Shown here in pieces: positions 15,061-59,420 of a stretch of 59,420 nt of DNA. The DNA is taken from contig DATBAK010000020.1 in assembly GCA_036271555.1 (NCBI GenBank), positions 1 to 59,420 of the forward strand. The letters are read 5' to 3'. Position 1 is the stretch's first letter. Every line of letters begins with the position of its first letter. The notes beneath the pieces were generated by a model. It did not search any database. It saw only the letters and a program-made list of their open reading frames with translations, and had not been told where the DNA came from. The position numbers and the translations under genes are program-made. This DNA is from Acidimicrobiia bacterium. GTDB lineage: Bacteria; Actinomycetota; Acidimicrobiia; IMCC26256; PALSA-610.

Positions 15061-15300
15061 CATGGTCGGGCTCGCAGGCTCGCCCTCCGCGACGCGCGCC
15101 GCGACCCGCGTGGCCGCGCCGCTCGCTCCGCTCGCGCGCTCAGACGCGCTCGCCCTCCGCGACGCGCGACGCGACCCGCGGGGCCGCGCCGCTCGCTCCG
15201 CTCGCGCGCTCAGACGCGCTCAGACGCGCTCGCCCTCCGCGACGCGCGCCGCGACCCGCGTGGCCGCTCCGCTCGCTCCGCTCGCGCGCTCAGACGCGCG
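15061..15300. repeat. Tandem repeat, three ~70-80 bp units
   Basis: Three copies begin CGCCCTCCGCGACGCGCG at 15081, 15151 and 15231 and end in CGCTCAGACGCG. The middle copy is 10 bases longer because CAGACGCGCT is duplicated. Positions 15061-15080 (TGGTCGGGCTCGCAGGCTCG) match the dispersed TGGTCG element seen elsewhere in the window. The 304-base gap between genes holds only this and the hairpin; short open frames here are repeat by-products. Confidence 0.85.
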
Positions 15301-15306
15301 TGCCCT

Positions 15307-16416
15307 TCACGACGTGGACGGCGCGCCGACGAACGCGAGCGGCCGATCGTTGGGCCGGTCGTCCGTGCCCACGGCCACGCAGTGACGGACGTCGAAGCAG
15401 TCGACTCCGTGCAGCCAGCCACTCGGGTGCACCTCGACGTCCGGATACGACCACACGGTCCCGTTCCAGGCCGCGATGAGCTGGCCGAACGTTCCCGATC
15501 CATTGGGGCCGTACCACGTGCCCACCGCGACGCAGTTGACGCCGTGCGCGCACGAGACGTCGTCGACATGGCTCCCCATCGCACCCGGCGGAACCGGGTC
15601 GGTGAGCAGCTTCCAGCGGTGGCCGTTCCATTGCTCGACGAGCGGGTCGTTGGACGCGCCCTCATCGTGCTGGCCGACCGCAAGGCAACGGTCGGGCGCG
15701 CCACACGAGACGTGCAGCAGCACGTTCGCGCCGCCCGGCAGGTTCGGCGGCGCATGGGTCGCGGTCCATTGCTCGCCGTCCCACGTCTCCGCGCGCGTGG
15801 TTGCCATGTGGCACGTCCGGCAACTGAAGGTGACGCCCACCGCGACGCAGTGTGTCTCCGAGGTGCACGAGACGTCGTACATCGCGTTCCCGTGCAACGA
15901 CATCGGCGCGGCGACGAGCGTCCACTTGCTGCCGTCGAAGCGTTCGAAGAACGCGTCCCTGGAGCCGCGGCCGGCCGCCATGCACCACGTCGCGCTGACG
16001 CAGGAGACGCCGTCGAGCTCCGAGTAGCCGCCGGGACCGGGCACCGTGCTCGGGGTCCACTCCGCGCCGTTCCAGGTATCCGCGCTCGCGCGATCGCCGG
16101 CCAGACCGACCGCGACGCACATCGTCGTCGTCGGGCAGTCGAGGCTGCCCGCGAACCGCGGTGACGTCGACTGCACGGTCCAGCGTCGGCCGTTCCACTG
16201 CAGGACGTGCTCCGGGTCTCCCTCGGTCAAAGCGAGACACGAGCGCGCCGCCGGACACGAGACCTGGGTCAGCCCAGGGGTCGCGTGCGGTGTGCGCGAG
16301 AACGTCCACGACGCCGGCGCAGCCGACGCGGTGCCGCCCAAGGTTGCGAACGCGAGCAGCACGGCCACACTGCTCGCCACAATGATGCGTCGCTGACGCC
16401 GCCCCGTACCGGACAT
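15307..16416 (-). CDS. Exported beta-propeller-like repeat protein
   Basis: A 369-residue secreted protein. After the signal peptide (VLLAFATLGGTASAAP) come about seven repeats of roughly 45-50 residues, each built as VSC-x(5)-C-x-AVG followed by a strand and a (W/E)xWNGxxWT motif. Examples are VSCPAARSCLALTEG, VSCVSATWCMAAG and VSCAHGVNCVAVG. Regular Cys pairs suggest one disulfide per blade, and the repeat fits a propeller fold. Binding partner unknown. The ATG at 16416 follows a GGTGGGTG site; GTG 16419 is an alternative. Confidence 0.8.
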   Translation of the reverse strand: MSGTGRRQRRIIVASSVAVLLAFATLGGTASAAPASWTFSRTPHATPGLTQVSCPAARSCLALTEGDPEHVLQWNGRRWTVQSTSPRFAGSLDCPTTTMCVAVGLAGDRASADTWNGAEWTPSTVPGPGGYSELDGVSCVSATWCMAAGRGSRDAFFERFDGSKWTLVAAPMSLHGNAMYDVSCTSETHCVAVGVTFSCRTCHMATTRAETWDGEQWTATHAPPNLPGGANVLLHVSCGAPDRCLAVGQHDEGASNDPLVEQWNGHRWKLLTDPVPPGAMGSHVDDVSCAHGVNCVAVGTWYGPNGSGTFGQLIAAWNGTVWSYPDVEVHPSGWLHGVDCFDVRHCVAVGTDDRPNDRPLAFVGAPSTS

Positions 16417-19188: not shown

Positions 19189-19232
19189 GTGGTACTGCGT
19201 TGTTCGGCGGTACGCCGACAACGCAGTACCAC
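19189..19232. repeat. 44-base hairpin repeat, copy 1
   Basis: Left arm GTGGTACTGCGTTGTTCGGC(G), loop GTA, right arm CGCCGACAACGCAGTACCAC. The arms are exact complements apart from one extra T on the left. Nearly the same element lies at 57151-57194 and 59287-59330. Here it directly follows the GH4-MDR operon and could act as a terminator or be a REP-like mobile palindrome. The remaining 240 bases to 19473 show no gene. Confidence 0.9.
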
Positions 19233-53212: not shown

Positions 53213-54441
53213 CAGTCGCCTTCGTACTCGAGCTCGGTGCCGCCGATACGCACGACGTCGCCGTCGCGCGCGCCGGCGCGCGCGAGCGCGCGGTCGACGC
53301 CGATGCGTTGCAGCCGCTGTTGCACGTACACGAGCGCGTCGGGATCCGCGATGTCCGACACCGCGACCGCGCGCTCCGCGATCTTCCCGTGCACGCGCCA
53401 TGCGTTGTCGCCCTCGCGCTCGATCGAGATCCCTTCTTCGCGCGGCCGCAGGATGACGACGGGATCGGGCGCGTCGGCTTCCGCGCGCGCGTCGTCGATC
53501 AGCGCGGCGACGCGGCCGAGCACCTCGTCGAGTCCGTCCCGCGTCGCGGCCGACACCCGCAGGCCGTCGTACGGCTCGGTCGCGACGTCGGCCTTGCTGC
53601 CGACGACGAGCCGGGGCCGGTCGAGCAGCTCGGGCAGGTAACGGCCGAGCTCACCGAGCAGGATCGCCTGCTGCTCCGCGGGCGTCGGTCCCGCGACCGG
53701 CGCGAGGTCGAGCAAGAGCACGAGCACCCGCGCCCGCTCGATGTGGCGGAGGAACTGGTGGCCGAGCCCGCGGCCTTCGGCCGCGCCCTCGACGAGCCCC
53801 GGGATGTCGGCCAGCACGAACTCGTGCTCGTGGAACCGAACGACGCCGAGGTTCGGGACCAGGGTGGTGAACGGGTAGTCGGCGATCTTCGGCTTCGCCG
53901 CGCTCACCGCCGCGATCAAGGTCGACTTCCCGGCGTTCGGCAGGCCGACGAGCGCGGCGTCGGCCATCAACTTCAGCTCGAGCTTCAGCCAGCGCTCCTC
54001 GCCGTACTCGCCCTGCTGGGCGAACGCCGGCGCCCGCCGCGCGTTCGACAGGAACCGCGCGTTGCCCTGACCGCCGCGGCCGGCGCTCGCTGCGAGCCAA
54101 CGGTCGCCGTGGCGGAGGAGGTCGGCGAGGAGACTGCCGTCTCGGCCCCGGACGACCGTCCCTTCGGGAACATCGACGACGAGGTCGGAGCCGCCGGCGC
54201 CGTGACGCTTGTCGCCCTTGCCATGGGTGCCCGACGTCGCCCGGCGGTGCGGGTGGTCCCGGAAGGCGAGCAGCGAAGCGACGTTGCGGTTCGCCCGCAG
54301 CCAGACGTCGCCGCCCTTGCCGCCGTCGCCACCGTCGGGCCCGCCCTTGGGCGTGTGCGACTCCCGGCGGAACGAGACCGCGCCGGCGCCGCCGTCACCG
54401 GCACGCACGTTGATCTGGGCCTCGTCGACAAAGTTGGACAT
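53212..54441 (-). CDS. obg: GTPase Obg (CgtA)
   Basis: A 409-residue Obg, acting in 50S assembly and stress signalling. The glycine-rich Obg fold is INVRAGDGGAGAVSFRRESH with GGPDGGDGGKGG. G motifs are GLPNAGKST (G1), DIPGLVEGAAEGRGLGHQFL (G3) and SKAD (G4). A C-terminal OCT domain is present (VVILRPREEGISIEREGDNA). TATCCT lies nine bases before the ATG as a possible -10. In most actinobacteria obg follows rpmA directly; here 4.9 kb on the other strand intervenes. Confidence 0.95.
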   Translation of the reverse strand: MSNFVDEAQINVRAGDGGAGAVSFRRESHTPKGGPDGGDGGKGGDVWLRANRNVASLLAFRDHPHRRATSGTHGKGDKRHGAGGSDLVVDVPEGTVVRGRDGSLLADLLRHGDRWLAASAGRGGQGNARFLSNARRAPAFAQQGEYGEERWLKLELKLMADAALVGLPNAGKSTLIAAVSAAKPKIADYPFTTLVPNLGVVRFHEHEFVLADIPGLVEGAAEGRGLGHQFLRHIERARVLVLLLDLAPVAGPTPAEQQAILLGELGRYLPELLDRPRLVVGSKADVATEPYDGLRVSAATRDGLDEVLGRVAALIDDARAEADAPDPVVILRPREEGISIEREGDNAWRVHGKIAERAVAVSDIADPDALVYVQQRLQRIGVDRALARAGARDGDVVRIGGTELEYEGD

Positions 54442-54540
54442 CGCCGCCACAGGATACGGAGCGGGTCGGTCGACACCCCGGAAGCAGGGGCGCCTGGGCG
54501 GCGCGAGCACACGACCACGTGCGCTCCCACCCCGCTGCAC

Positions 54541-54748
54541 GAGCGGCGAGCGCCCGCGGGACGGGTATCCCGGCCCGCAGCGAGCGCGACCAAACGCACC
54601 GAGCGCCGAGCGCCCGCGGGACGGGTATCCCGGCCCGCAGCGAGCGCGACCAAGAGCACCGAGCGGCGAGCGCCCGCGGGACGGGTATCCCGGCCCGCAG
54701 CGAGCGCGACCAAGAGCACCGAGCGGCGAGCGCAGCGAGTGCGACCAG
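54541..54748. repeat. 60-bp tandem array, three full and one partial copy
   Basis: Units begin GAGCGGCGAGCGCCCGCGGG at 54541 and 54661; the unit at 54601 has GAGCGCCGAGCG. Each carries GACGGGTATCCCGGCCCGCA and ends CGACCAA-A/G-A/C-GCACC; the units differ at only a few positions. A short final copy (54721-54748) lacks the 23-25 base centre and ends GTGCGACCA. The unit is an expanded form of the dispersed element. The whole 54442-54786 gap holds this array, the helD promoter and no gene. Confidence 0.9.
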
Positions 54749-54754
54749 AAAGCG

Positions 54755-54760
54755 TAGAAT
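54755..54760 (+). promoter_or_regulatory. -10 hexamer of helD
   Basis: TAGAAT, seven bases past the repeat array and 27 bases before GTG 54787. A GGGGAG ribosome site at 54775-54780 fits a short leader. Confidence 0.45.
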
Positions 54761-54786
54761 TTCTCTTCCCCCACGGGGAGTCGTGC

Positions 54787-57135
54787 GTGACCGAGCAGCA
54801 GGTCTGGGACCCGGAAATCAACAGCGAGCAGGCCTATCTCGACGCGGCGTACGCGCGGCTCGAGTCCATGCGCGGTGCCGCCCGCCAGGTCCAGGACGCC
54901 TACTCCGACGTGCGCGCGGGCGGCACCCACCAGGCCCGACTCGAGCGCGACATCGCCCACAACATCACGCAGCGTCGCCTCGCGGACCTCGAGATCGGCG
55001 AGACACCGCTGGCCTTCGGCCGCCTCGACCTCGAGTCCGGTGATCCGTACTACATCGGCCGCCTCGCGGTCGAGGACGCCGACCACTCGCCGCTCGTCAT
55101 CGACTGGCGCGCGCCCGTCGCCGAGCCCTTCTACCGCGCGACCGCGGTCGCGCCGATGGGCGTCGTGCGGCGGCGCCACTTCATCACCCGCCACGGGCGC
55201 GAGATCATCGCGCTCGACGACGAGGTGTTCGACCGCGACGCGAGCGAGTCTGCGGGCCTGCAGGTCAGCGGCGAGGGCGCGCTGCTCGGCGCGCTCGAAC
55301 GCGATCGCACCGGTCGCATGGGCGACATCGTCGCGACGATTCAGTTCGAGCAGGACGAGGCGATCCGCGCCGAGCTGCCCGGCATCCTCGTCGTCGGCGG
55401 CGGTCCCGGAACCGGCAAGACCGCGGTCGCGCTGCACCGCGCCGCCTACCTCCTCTACACGCACCGGCGCCGGCTCGCCTCACAAGGCGTGCTGCTCATC
55501 GGGCCGAGCCCGGTGTTCCTCCGCTACATCGAGCAGGTGCTGCCGTCGCTCGGCGAGCAGGACGTGCAGCTCTCGACGCTCGCGGGGCTCAAGCCGCAGC
55601 TCGACGCACGGCGTCGCGACCCTCGCCCCGTCGCCGCGCTCAAGGGCGACGGACGCATGGCGAAGATCATCGCGAAGGCAGTGAGCGATCGGCAGCGCCC
55701 GCTGCCGCGTGACCTGAACTTCGTGATCGACGGCCTGCGCGTCACCTTGCGCCGCGACGACTCCGCGCGCGTCGTGCACGGCGCCCGCCGCCAGCGCGGT
55801 ACCCACAACGAACGCCGGCGCAGTGTGGTGCGGCGCACGATCGACATGCTCGTCGCGCGCTACAAGACCGCGGCGATCCGCGCGTACCAGGAAGCGCGCG
55901 TCGACAACGGGAGCGCGAGCCTGACGCTCTTCGGCGGATCGCGGGGCGCGATCAGCGGGCCCGATCCGTTGATCGGCCGCGCGCTGTCCGAAGGCGATCC
56001 GCTGCCCGAAGGGTGGGAGAAGGATCTCGGCGAGCGCATCCGCCGCCGCCCGGAGGTTCGCGAGGCGCTCGATCGCATGTGGCCGGTGATCTCCGGCCCG
56101 GAGCTCGTGAACGATCTCCTGGGGTTCCGCGCGCTCGTGCGCTCCGCGGCTTCCGGAATCCTCGATGCCGACGAGCAGGACCGCTTGCACCGCCCCCGCG
56201 CGGCCGACGTCGCGCACGCATCGTGGACCGACTCCGACGTCGCGGTCATCGACGAGGCCGACGCGCTGCTCGGCCCGGTCGAAGCCGCGCGTCCGCGCTC
56301 CCGGCGCCGACGCGGGCACGACGCCGAGGCCCTCGAGACTGCGCAGGGCGTCGTCGCCGAGCTCGGTCTCAGTCGTTCGATCAGCGGCGCGAGCCTGCTC
56401 GCGCGCTACGGCGAGAACGGCGACGGTGAGCCGAGCGATCTCCCGGAGCCGCGCGTGTTCGGGCACGTGCTCGTCGACGAGGCGCAGGACCTCAACGCGA
56501 TGCAGTGGCGGATGCTGTCGCGGCGATGCCCGTCGGGATCGATGACGCTCGTCGGCGATCCTGCGCAGGCGAGCCGCGCCGCCGCGGTCGCGGATTGGGA
56601 TTCGATCCTGGCGCTGCTGCCGCGGCACACCCCGCCGCGAGCGACGACCCTCACCGTCAACTACCGCACGCCGAGCGAGATCATGGACGTCGCCAACCGT
56701 CTGCTCGCGGCGGCGGCGCCGACGGTCGAGCCGTCACGATCGGTGCGCAGCACTGGTGAGCGACCGCAGTTCGTCGCGGTCGCGGCGAACGAGCTCGTGG
56801 CGCGGGCCGCGGAGGTTGCGGCCGAAGCGTCGGACCGCGGCGGCAAGGTCGCGCTCATCGCACCCACTGCGTGCCACGCGGATCTCGTCGACCGGCTCGC
56901 GGCGCGCGGCGCGGCGTCGGACCCCGCAGTCGCGCTCGACGCGCCGATCGCGGTGCTCGACGCGACCGACGCCAAGGGCCTCGAGTTCGATCACGTCGTC
57001 GTCGTCGAGCCCGCCGAGCTCGTGCAGACCGACCGCGCCGGGCTGCGCCTCCTCTACGTCACGATCACGCGTGCGACCAAGACCCTCGCGGTCGTCCACG
57101 CCCAGCCCCTGCCCGAGGCGCTCGACCTCATCTGA
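54787..57135 (+). CDS. HelD-like superfamily 1 helicase (RNA polymerase recycling type)
   Basis: A 782-residue UvrD/HelD-type ATPase. The N-terminal coiled region (SEQAYLDAAYARLESMRGAA, ARLERDIAHNITQRRLADLE) and VIDWRAPVAEPFYRA are typical of HelD. Motor motifs are Walker A GGGPGTGKTAVALHRAAYLL (Lys211), motif II VDEAQDLNAMQW, motif III LVGDPAQASR, motif IV-V VNYRTPSEI and DATDAKGLEFDHVVVVEP, and motif VI LYVTITRATK. Actinobacterial HelD/HelR strips stalled RNA polymerase from DNA and can protect against rifamycins. It stands opposite to obg, between obg and rpmA. Confidence 0.9.
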   Translation: MTEQQVWDPEINSEQAYLDAAYARLESMRGAARQVQDAYSDVRAGGTHQARLERDIAHNITQRRLADLEIGETPLAFGRLDLESGDPYYIGRLAVEDADHSPLVIDWRAPVAEPFYRATAVAPMGVVRRRHFITRHGREIIALDDEVFDRDASESAGLQVSGEGALLGALERDRTGRMGDIVATIQFEQDEAIRAELPGILVVGGGPGTGKTAVALHRAAYLLYTHRRRLASQGVLLIGPSPVFLRYIEQVLPSLGEQDVQLSTLAGLKPQLDARRRDPRPVAALKGDGRMAKIIAKAVSDRQRPLPRDLNFVIDGLRVTLRRDDSARVVHGARRQRGTHNERRRSVVRRTIDMLVARYKTAAIRAYQEARVDNGSASLTLFGGSRGAISGPDPLIGRALSEGDPLPEGWEKDLGERIRRRPEVREALDRMWPVISGPELVNDLLGFRALVRSAASGILDADEQDRLHRPRAADVAHASWTDSDVAVIDEADALLGPVEAARPRSRRRRGHDAEALETAQGVVAELGLSRSISGASLLARYGENGDGEPSDLPEPRVFGHVLVDEAQDLNAMQWRMLSRRCPSGSMTLVGDPAQASRAAAVADWDSILALLPRHTPPRATTLTVNYRTPSEIMDVANRLLAAAAPTVEPSRSVRSTGERPQFVAVAANELVARAAEVAAEASDRGGKVALIAPTACHADLVDRLAARGAASDPAVALDAPIAVLDATDAKGLEFDHVVVVEPAELVQTDRAGLRLLYVTITRATKTLAVVHAQPLPEALDLI

Positions 57136-57150
57136 GCCCCACCGTTCCTA

Positions 57151-57194
57151 GTGGTACTGCGTTGTCGGCGTATCGCCGAACAACGCAGTACCAC
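57151..57194. repeat. 44-base hairpin repeat, copy 2
   Basis: GTGGTACTGCGTTGTCGGCG, loop TAT, CGCCGAACAACGCAGTACCA(C). It is the inverse of copy 1 (the extra base is on the right arm) and 15 bases after the helD stop. A terminator role is possible. Confidence 0.9.
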
Positions 57195-57251
57195 CGCGAG
57201 CCCGGCGGACGCGTGTGACGGATTGCTGGCCGTCGGCGGTTACGTGCGGTA

Positions 57252-57737
57252 GTGAGCGCAATCGTGGGTGAGGGCGAGGTCGTGGCGATCACCGAGGACT
57301 TCGACTCCTTCGTCGCCCGGTGCGGACCCGACCTGCGGCGCGTGCTGGTGGCCCGCTACGGGCTGGAGGTCGGGCTCGAGGCCGCGGCCGACGCGCTCGC
57401 GTACGCGTGGGAGCGATGGGCGCGCGTCGGCGCGATGGCGAACCCGACCGGCTATCTCGTGCGCGTCGGGCAGTCGGCGGCGCGCCGCTATCGACGGCGA
57501 CCGGTCGGGCTGCCCGACGCCGCGCCGGGCGCCGACTCGACCTTCGACCCCCGCCTGCCGCGCGCGCTCGAGCACCTGTCGCCGCGCCAACGCAGCGCGG
57601 TCGTCTTGATCTGCGTGCACGACTGGACCTACCCGGCGGCCGCGGCCGCGCTCGGCGTGTCGGAGTCGACGTTGCGCAATCACGTGCGGCGCGGGCTCGA
57701 GTCGCTGCGCCGCGAGCTCGGAGAGGACACGCGATGA
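57252..57737 (+). CDS. ECF-type RNA polymerase sigma factor
   Basis: A 161-residue sigma-70 family protein of the small SigE-like group. Region 2 (residues ~15-75: FDSFVARCGPDLRRVLVARY, ADALAYAWERWARVGAMANP) and region 4 (~105-155: HLSPRQRSAVVLICVHDWTY, AAAALGVSESTLRNHVRRGL) are present, with no long linker. GTG 57252 is the longest start; GTG 57282, with GGGCGAGG before it, is also possible. Its stop overlaps the PASTA gene start (ATGA), so the two are co-made and likely regulator and target. Confidence 0.86.
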   Translation: MSAIVGEGEVVAITEDFDSFVARCGPDLRRVLVARYGLEVGLEAAADALAYAWERWARVGAMANPTGYLVRVGQSAARRYRRRPVGLPDAAPGADSTFDPRLPRALEHLSPRQRSAVVLICVHDWTYPAAAAALGVSESTLRNHVRRGLESLRRELGEDTR

Positions 57738-59278
57738 ACATCGCGGAGCAACTGCGCGAGTACCGCAGCACCCTCGACACCGCGACGCAGAGCGCGACGA
57801 CCGAGTCGCCGCGCGTCGCACCCGTCATCCGGTTGCACCCGGCGCGCACGTTGATCATCGCCGCGGTCGCGGTTGCCGCCGCGATCGGGATCGCGTTCGT
57901 GGTCGTCGGCACGACGAACAAGCGCTCGACGCCACCCGCGGGTGTGACCACGTCGACCGGTGTCGCGCGCTCTGCACGCGTTCCGAACGTCCTGGGCGTC
58001 GACCGGCGCCACGCGGTACGGATGCTCACGGCGGCGGGGTTCGTCGTGTCGGAACAGATCGTGCCCAGCGACACCGTCCCGGTGCAGTTGGTCGTCGCGC
58101 AATCGCCGGTCGCCGGCTCGTCCGTGCGGATCGGCTCCGCGGTCACCGTGCGGGTGTCGAGTGGCCCGGCACGCGGCGGGAGCCTGGAAGTCGGCGTCAC
58201 CGTGTGCCCGACGCAGCAGAGCGTCGCGCCGGGCCCGTTGGATCCCGATGCGCCATCGACGATTTTGATCCCCGCCGTGTCCCTCGCGAGCCCCGCGCCC
58301 GCGGCGTACAGCGGGAAGCGCGGCTTCCTCGTCATCACCGCACCCGCGGGTTGGAGCTGCAAGGCCATCGAAGCGGGCGACGGCAGCCAGGGAATCGGCG
58401 TCACGCCGCCGGGTTCGACACCGCGAGAACGTTGGGGCAACCCCGGCCAGGTGACGAAGCCGCTCACCGACGGCGTGTTCGCGATATCGGTCCCCACCTG
58501 CCAGGGATGCGTGTACGACGAGATCTGCGGGATCGTCCCGTCCGCGTCGGCGGACTTCCCCGGCTTCGCGTCACTGCCCTGCTCGCGACCGCCCGGTGAG
58601 ACGGCCATCGATCGCGGGAACGGCGTCTACGAGTTCGACGATCCCGCGGGCACGATCGGACCCGACGCGGCGCGATCGATCCTCCGCTACGTCTCCCGAA
58701 CTGCGCAGACCGACGCGACGGTGGTCCGCGAGACCTGCATCCTGCCGGCGTCGCAGCACAACCTCTGCGACACGCTGTTCGCAGAGTTCTTCGCGCTGCA
58801 GCCCACGCCGTGGAATCAGCCGACGCTCACGATCAGCCCGACCGCGCTCGGCGCGGTCACCCTCGGCGACAACCTGTCGGTGGCGCAGGAAGCCGCGGGC
58901 GAGACCTTCGACGGGACCGGCGACGGCTTCTACTACTCGAGGGCCCACGACGGCACGGGCCTGCACCTCTTCGTCGGCGTTTCGACGGGCAAGACCGTTC
59001 ATTGCGTCGGCGCCGAGCTGATTATCTCGCCCCACGCACCCAAGCAGCGCGTCGTCACGCCCGAAGGCTTCACGCTCGGCGGGACCGTGCAGCTGCTGCT
59101 CGCGATCTACGGGCAGCGCGCGGTGTACGTCCCTGCACCGAAGCGCGGCATGACGACGAACGCGGGCTACGTCGTGAAGGAAGGCGTCGGCGCGCTCGCG
59201 TTCGCCGTGCACCAGAACAAGGTGTTCGAGATCGCGGGCGGCCCCGCGACCATCACGCCCAACACCTGCACGGGTTAG
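57734..59278 (+). CDS. Single-pass membrane protein with PASTA domain, sigma-factor partner
   Basis: A 514-residue type II membrane protein. A short cytoplasmic N-terminus (MNIAEQLREYRSTLDTATQS) precedes one membrane helix (~39-59) and a PASTA domain (~82-146: VPNVLGVDRRHAVRMLTAAG, VVAQSPVAGSSVRIGSAVTV). A ~360-residue external domain with many cysteines follows that I do not recognise. PASTA domains bind peptidoglycan fragments. Position after an ECF sigma gene suggests an anti-sigma or sensor role, but no ZAS-type anti-sigma motif is visible. Confidence 0.75.
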   Translation: MNIAEQLREYRSTLDTATQSATTESPRVAPVIRLHPARTLIIAAVAVAAAIGIAFVVVGTTNKRSTPPAGVTTSTGVARSARVPNVLGVDRRHAVRMLTAAGFVVSEQIVPSDTVPVQLVVAQSPVAGSSVRIGSAVTVRVSSGPARGGSLEVGVTVCPTQQSVAPGPLDPDAPSTILIPAVSLASPAPAAYSGKRGFLVITAPAGWSCKAIEAGDGSQGIGVTPPGSTPRERWGNPGQVTKPLTDGVFAISVPTCQGCVYDEICGIVPSASADFPGFASLPCSRPPGETAIDRGNGVYEFDDPAGTIGPDAARSILRYVSRTAQTDATVVRETCILPASQHNLCDTLFAEFFALQPTPWNQPTLTISPTALGAVTLGDNLSVAQEAAGETFDGTGDGFYYSRAHDGTGLHLFVGVSTGKTVHCVGAELIISPHAPKQRVVTPEGFTLGGTVQLLLAIYGQRAVYVPAPKRGMTTNAGYVVKEGVGALAFAVHQNKVFEIAGGPATITPNTCTG

Positions 59279-59286
59279 TGGTTTTG

Positions 59287-59330
59287 GTGGTACTGCGTTA
59301 TCGGCGTATCGCCGAAGAACGCAGTACCAC
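59287..59330. repeat. 44-base hairpin repeat, copy 3
   Basis: GTGGTACTGCGTTATCGGCG, loop TAT, CGCCGAAGAACGCAGTACCA(C). It lies between the convergent ends of the PASTA gene and rpmA. Confidence 0.9.
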
Positions 59331-59344
59331 TGACGCGCGGGAGG

Positions 59345-59420
59345 TCAGCCCTGGACGATGTCGACGAGCTTGCGGCCGCCGCGCTTGCCGAACTTCACGA
59401 CACCGTCGGACGTCGCGAAC
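59345..59420 (-). CDS. rpmA: Ribosomal protein bL27, C-terminal end only
   Basis: The last 24 residues read FATSDGVVKFGKRGGRKLVD then IVQG and a stop, the conserved end of bL27 (DGxVKFxKxGxxxxxVxI). The rest lies beyond the window. Its place next to the obg block is as expected for the rplU-rpmA-obg order, apart from the helD/sigma/PASTA cassette between. Confidence 0.88.
   Translation of the reverse strand, partial: FATSDGVVKFGKRGGRKLVDIVQG

Follow-up and report, generated by a model that had tools for sequence, protein, structure and literature searches.

HelD-type ATPases recycle RNA polymerase, and their DWR motif is named in an excerpt of PMC8655204. For mycobacteria, 'I-shaped' terminators that lack a U-tract and lie within 50 bp of a stop codon have been described (excerpt of PMC12288462), and REPs elsewhere favor convergent and unidirectional gaps between genes (excerpt of PMC3733652). 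The ending of transcripts without U-tracts in high-GC actinobacteria is a disputed question, and the hairpin set described here bears on it. Literature searches covered HelD with rpmA and obg, HelD in Actinobacteria, palindromic repeats of Acidimicrobiia, terminators between convergent genes of actinobacteria, REPs with stop codons and RAYT, and PASTA proteins with ECF sigma factors; among the matches listed, none gave an account of our hairpin family or of the helD position reported below.

Gene order in the window

The window, the 59,420 nucleotides of DNA analyzed here, is the entire contig C20 of a 4.68-Mb draft genome that is 95.8% complete. In it, the minus-strand halves of one operon, rplU-rpmA and obg-proB, are separated by three plus-strand genes, as the initial annotation had stated: helD (54787-57135; 782 amino acids from an inferred GTG start), a small ECF-type sigma factor gene (57252-57737; 161 amino acids) and a gene for a PASTA protein (57734-59278; 514 amino acids, PASTA domain at residues 82-143). 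The downstream half begins with obg, which encodes the GTPase Obg/CgtA (53215-54441, minus strand, start at 54441; 466 bits with NF008955, above its cut-off). At the other end, rpmA (minus strand) is truncated by the contig end, and its 3' part occupies 59347-59420, with the stop codon at about 59347. The remainder of rpmA is found on contig C95 of the same genome, bases 1-141 of which exactly overlap the end of C20 (window 59280-59420); past the overlap, C95 (record L082) continues with the rest of rpmA, rplU and an RNase E/G-type gene, the last by ORF reading. This exact 141-bp overlap adjoins the sigma-PASTA addition and is possibly an assembly fork; it may reflect strain variation at the sigma-PASTA site.

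Two 44-nt palindromes lie at gene ends in this region, hairpin 1 (57151-57194) 15 nt past the helD stop and hairpin 2 (59287-59330) between the stop codons of the PASTA gene on the plus strand and rpmA on the minus strand. In addition, a 60-bp tandem array (54540-54733; 3.2 copies, 97% match) occupies the divergent intergenic region between obg and helD. Rfam gave no family at gathering score anywhere in the window, and a T-box resemblance of the hairpin arms was dropped, since no T-box was found in Rfam up to E 10 across 54000-59420. A rifampicin-associated element near helD was also considered, and its 19-bp motif had 0 matches in the window. A separate GC-rich tandem array with a period of 70-80 bp is present at 15078-15314.

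We read the locus, with a probability of roughly 0.6, as layered: helD is family-wide, the sigma-PASTA pair belongs to the lineage of the window only, and the REP-like hairpins at gene ends are specific to this genome. In the first layer, the family ancestor would have gained helD, antisense, between rpmA and obg, mostly together with an HhH-GPD-like gene; obg would then need its own promoter opposite helD. In the second, confined to the window's lineage, the ECF-type sigma and PASTA genes would have been added between helD and rpmA; the HhH-GPD-like gene is absent from this locus. In the third, a genome-specific REP-like palindrome would have come to stand both at the 3' end of helD and where the PASTA gene and rpmA meet tail to tail, so that hairpins would set sigma-PASTA apart from helD and also part the PASTA gene from rpmA on the opposite strand.

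A hairpin family at gene ends

Both 44-nt hairpins at gene ends are real, and they belong to a family with the formula TGGTACTGCGTT-N18-AACGCAGTACCA; a third copy in the window (19189-19232) lies directly behind a plus-strand gene. The genome contains 54 copies with exact arms and, with up to 3 mismatches, 65 copies (one of them counted twice via the C20/C95 overlap), while the reversed control gave 0. We examined 59 distinct copies; one further copy (C103, L186) lies outside this set. The 13-nt arms are nearly invariant across the 59 copies, and the inner 18 nt are variable. Lone arms are nearly absent, with at least 59 arms per strand versus 54 exact pairs, and among the matches listed, eight of the nine arms outside exact pairs are accompanied by a diverged second arm at the expected distance, the arm at C4:42169 being without one. 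A reading as integron attC sites or uptake sequences was dropped because the arms rarely occur alone.

The family appears confined to one lineage. Its 42-nt form was found in none of 60 relatives, and none was detected in GTDB r220 contigs and IMG/VR by scans that may omit the own genome and its near neighbors. The sole copy seen outside the window's genome is a lone palindrome in G005 (C27:6928-6971, record L144), with the same 12-nt arms and a 20-nt middle. Another relative, G003, has a 42-nt family of its own, GTGGTCACC-N24-GGTGACCAC with a central ACAT, in 3 copies in 400 kb (L159:3465, L165:8233, L166:2101), which lie away from gene ends according to the gene caller. A hairpin family common to the relatives was therefore rejected, the G003 family being a different one and not at gene ends.

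On the plus strand, hairpins 1 and 2 have folding energies of -36 to -38 kcal/mol (z -6.9 and -6.4), and shuffled window sequences contained no such 44-nt palindromes. Over the aligned copies, the drawn structure is paired in 89.0% of cells versus 84.2% after shuffling, and changes on both sides were counted in 44 cells versus 18.6 in the shuffles (0 of 500 reached 44) and 6 to 24 in slid versions; this supports covariation of the inner stem but does not prove it, because the shuffles ignore relatedness and the copies were oriented by pairing. The orientation of the bulge did not follow the direction of transcription significantly (12 of 17; p = 0.14).

Placement relative to genes was analyzed with a home-made codon-usage gene caller. 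Fifty-seven of the 59 copies are intergenic, namely 34 in convergent, 20 in co-directional and 3 in divergent gaps, and the other 2 overlap genes predicted by the caller. Because the contig end truncates rpmA, we assigned the copy at 59287 to the convergent class by hand. Among 73 background gaps of at least 30 bp, taken from 139 kb of this genome, only 8 are convergent, 45 are co-directional and 20 divergent, so that hairpins are enriched between convergent genes (Fisher p = 4e-9). Of the 88 gene 3' ends that face a hairpin, 78 are at most 20 nt and 85 at most 48 nt away, and at 31 the hairpin includes the last base of the stop codon. Counted without the gene caller, 36 in-frame stops directly abut a hairpin; every one of them is TAG, compared with 25 TAG among 107 background stops. 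Furthermore, the 15 nt downstream of the 20 co-directional copies contain 9% T, and thus no U-tract.

From their fold and placement, we infer that the hairpins are REP-like, U-less and often bidirectional 3'-end or terminator hairpins. Most likely, the transcribed hairpin would, by its strong fold, end or stabilize transcripts that arrive from either side, with no need of a U-tract. The helD transcript would end at hairpin 1, and those of PASTA and rpmA at hairpin 2, which they would reach from opposite sides. The position of hairpin 1 between helD and sigma argues for two transcription units, and closure by the hairpins would make helD and sigma-PASTA two units and the split operon tolerable. 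Several points count against this interpretation: 3 of the 59 copies lie between divergent genes, and mycobacterial RNA polymerase is said, in work ascribed to Czyz in 2014, to require a U-tract for termination. Since only 60-odd gene junctions bear a hairpin, it is not the general terminator, and its 13-nt arms show much stronger conservation than the stem of a terminator would require, which points to recognition by a protein or to a mobile origin. The constancy of the arms may stem from shared ancestry that included a mobile phase, or from a factor recognizing them.

Mobility could also be the whole explanation: a REP- or MITE-like palindrome would have inserted at stop codons, and its place at gene ends would reflect insertion bias and no host role. 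The one-lineage distribution, the fixed length, the 60-odd copies and the TAG built into the hairpin foot all fit such an element, as does the preference of REPs elsewhere for convergent and unidirectional gaps (excerpt of PMC3733652). However, no Y1/RAYT transposase gene (PF01797) was found in the 95.8% complete genome, with the E. coli control positive; GTAG stands at only 12 of the 118 hairpin ends, and CGTC is not among the end tetramers listed. Moreover, fixed arms combined with a diverging inner stem and covarying pairs are unlike recent copies of one element. We regard a mobile repeat with no host role as unlikely, though worth keeping in mind. A bolder version of the 3'-end reading, which we put forward as speculative and improbable, is a one-lineage module whose hairpin, together with the stop codon, makes up a single palindrome, TAG-TGGTACTGCGTT...AACGCAGTACCA-CTA. 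The module would act on both strands for convergent genes, its fixed arms would be read by a dedicated RNA- or DNA-binding factor, and it would have spread without a known transposase; if true, it would amount to a system for termination or 3' processing that is sequence-specific and U-independent.

More doubtful still is that the palindrome acts as double-stranded DNA, with two 13-bp half-sites separated by 18 bp, and that a dimeric protein bound there blocks RNA polymerase between genes or insulates it. The near-invariance of the 13-nt arms in 59 copies and the rarity of lone arms (8 of 9 listed unpaired arms with a diverged partner, 1 of 9 without) would suit such a site, but covariation of the inner stem is not needed by it and no candidate protein was identified.

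The 60-bp array is probably a local amplification of a dispersed repeat that contains CAGCGAGNGCGACCA. This core motif was counted 66 times across the genome (control, 1), mostly as single copies, and some copies adjoin a GGGATACCCG palindrome. It had been described as bordering the three genes; the array itself exists, but it borders their obg/helD side only. With its core motif at 66 genomic places, an insertion scar was rejected as the simplest reading of the array, and a hairpin-bounded cassette was likewise rejected, the hairpins occurring at gene ends genome-wide. Since both repeats are dispersed across the genome, neither the hairpins nor the array motif can be taken as evidence for the borders of an insertion. 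A duplication around sigma-PASTA could conceivably have given rise to hairpins 1 and 2, but both are at the family's usual position, after stop codons.

helD, sigma and PASTA genes in relatives

We used obg to extract the locus from 60 relatives and searched for HelD and the PASTA protein in the same set. HelD, whose gene had rightly been recognized as that of an RNA polymerase recycling factor and which falls into the HelD family by sequence, is present in all 14 genomes of the window's family, the own genome included. A HelD of at least 61% identity adjoins obg in 13 of them, and G011 has both on different contigs; throughout the family, helD is antisense to obg. In 11 of the 14 genomes, rpmA lies on the far side of helD (own genome, G001-G004, G006-G009, and G010 and G011 via records L196 and L192). 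As to the other three, G005 has helD adjoining obg, yet no rpmA in the stretch examined, the contig ends in G013, and G012 was not included. In most relatives, an HhH-GPD-like gene (Pfam 21.2 bits, below the 26.2 cut-off) lies between helD and obg; where it is missing, the helD-obg gap is 345 bp in the window and about 100 bp in G002. At the helD/rpmA junction of G008 (L048, about 2600-2720) and G013 (L071, about 1-225), copies of another palindrome, TGTTGCAAACTGTTTGCAACA, were seen.

Outside the family, HelD was found near obg at 0 of 25 loci, in line with the earlier observation that the rpmA-obg junction is interrupted here, unlike the wider gene order. Indeed, rpmA and obg are within about 300 bp of each other in 17 of the 23 non-family loci with a recognized rpmA. 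Other genes stand between them in the remaining 6 (L054, L058, L060, L064, L076 and L077), different genes in each case; Pfam analysis of six chosen interrupting ORFs gave HDOD, HD, LemA, histidine phosphatase, PEP-utiliser and amidohydrolase domains. Of the best 80 named HelD loci in GTDB contigs, 7 include obg and 6 include rpmA; every one of these belongs to the eight closest records, which are MAGs labeled Actinomycetota or Actinomycetes; of the 50 loci with more than 3 kb on both sides, 3 contain obg. Since HelD adjoins obg family-wide and is absent at the 25 obg loci tested from other families, its presence at the rpmA/obg site is an old, family-level relocation.

The sigma and PASTA genes behave differently from helD. 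By tblastn, neither was found at the obg locus of any relative examined. The PASTA domain itself being common, the C-terminal 367 residues of the protein were used for a search in 58 genomes of the order, own included. This part is an orphan, with weak matches (26-30% identity) outside the own genome only in G048 and G045, and occurs in 1 of 14 family genomes. By these searches, helD at obg is shared family-wide and old, and sigma-PASTA is a separate addition, seen at the site only in the window's genome. All three genes have host-like codon usage, which gives no sign of recent foreign origin of sigma-PASTA.

The two genes overlap as ATGA. In the sigma factor, region 4 is clear and region 2 absent from the Pfam output; its nearest family is TIGR02983 (residues 14-159 aligned), at 69 bits under a cut-off of 141. 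The label 'envelope-type' is not supported by these matches. The PASTA protein has a hydrophobic stretch at about residues 39-60, read from the sequence, behind about 38 N-terminal residues; its AlphaFold model has a mean pLDDT of 35, and no anti-sigma domain was found in the protein. The gene overlap, the hydrophobic stretch and the PASTA domain suggest a sigma factor with a membrane sensor partner, so the two probably form a sigma/membrane-sensor pair, with the PASTA protein as the candidate membrane partner.

That the three genes are one inserted transcription-stress island, working and moving as a unit, as initially proposed, would suit their common strand opposite to the operon, the action of both HelD and the sigma factor on RNA polymerase and the repeats at the edges, but it is very unlikely and, to judge from the phyletic pattern, already largely refuted: helD is family-wide without the other two genes (HelD in 14 of 14 genomes, the PASTA C-terminal part in 1 of 14), hairpin 1 stands in the gap from helD to sigma, the hairpins as well as the array motif occur genome-wide, and codon usage in all three genes is host-like. 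By the same genome counts, the helD, sigma and PASTA genes do not occur together. In summary, comparison with relatives breaks the apparent island up into layers, and the locus as such reflects ordinary genome evolution. More interesting is the hairpin family, which deserves a modest second look: its 60-odd U-less hairpins at gene ends are nearly identical, with arms that stay constant around variable cores, and as a natural set they are a good test object.

Comparison with described systems

The HelD of the window is nearest to the class II (mycobacterial) HelD. Most of its length is similar to the protein of Mycobacterium smegmatis (PDB 6yxu; E 4.6e-99), with which it shares the DWRAP and GGPGTGKT motifs, the latter for ATP binding. 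It differs in scoring below the NCBIfam HelD/HelR cut-offs (469 of 1100, 422 of 1051 and 394 of 750 bits) and in being encoded beside obg in its family. The sigma-PASTA pair resembles pairs of ECF sigma factor and membrane anti-sigma factor in that a small sigma gene overlaps the gene of a partner whose short N-terminal part is followed by a hydrophobic stretch and then by an outer domain of sensor-like type. It differs from them in its PASTA-type sensor with an orphan C-terminal part and in that no anti-sigma domain was found.

Like a canonical intrinsic terminator, the hairpins are GC-rich, but they lack the U-tract. They are closer to the mycobacterial 'I-shaped' terminators, as far as these are described in the excerpt of PMC12288462: both are GC-rich hairpins directly past the stop codon and have no U-tract. 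Here, by contrast, the arm sequence is identical at 60-odd sites, and the terminator role is inferred. With REP elements, as excerpted from PMC3733652, the hairpins share the form of short intergenic palindromes, the many copies, the location mostly in convergent and co-directional gaps and the restriction to a lineage. They differ from the GTAG and CGTC superfamilies described in that excerpt in having no constant GTAG or CGTC tag and no Y1/RAYT gene found with them. Furthermore, measured against the same excerpt, their arms are more constant than the inner stem, and TAG stop codons are included in the element.
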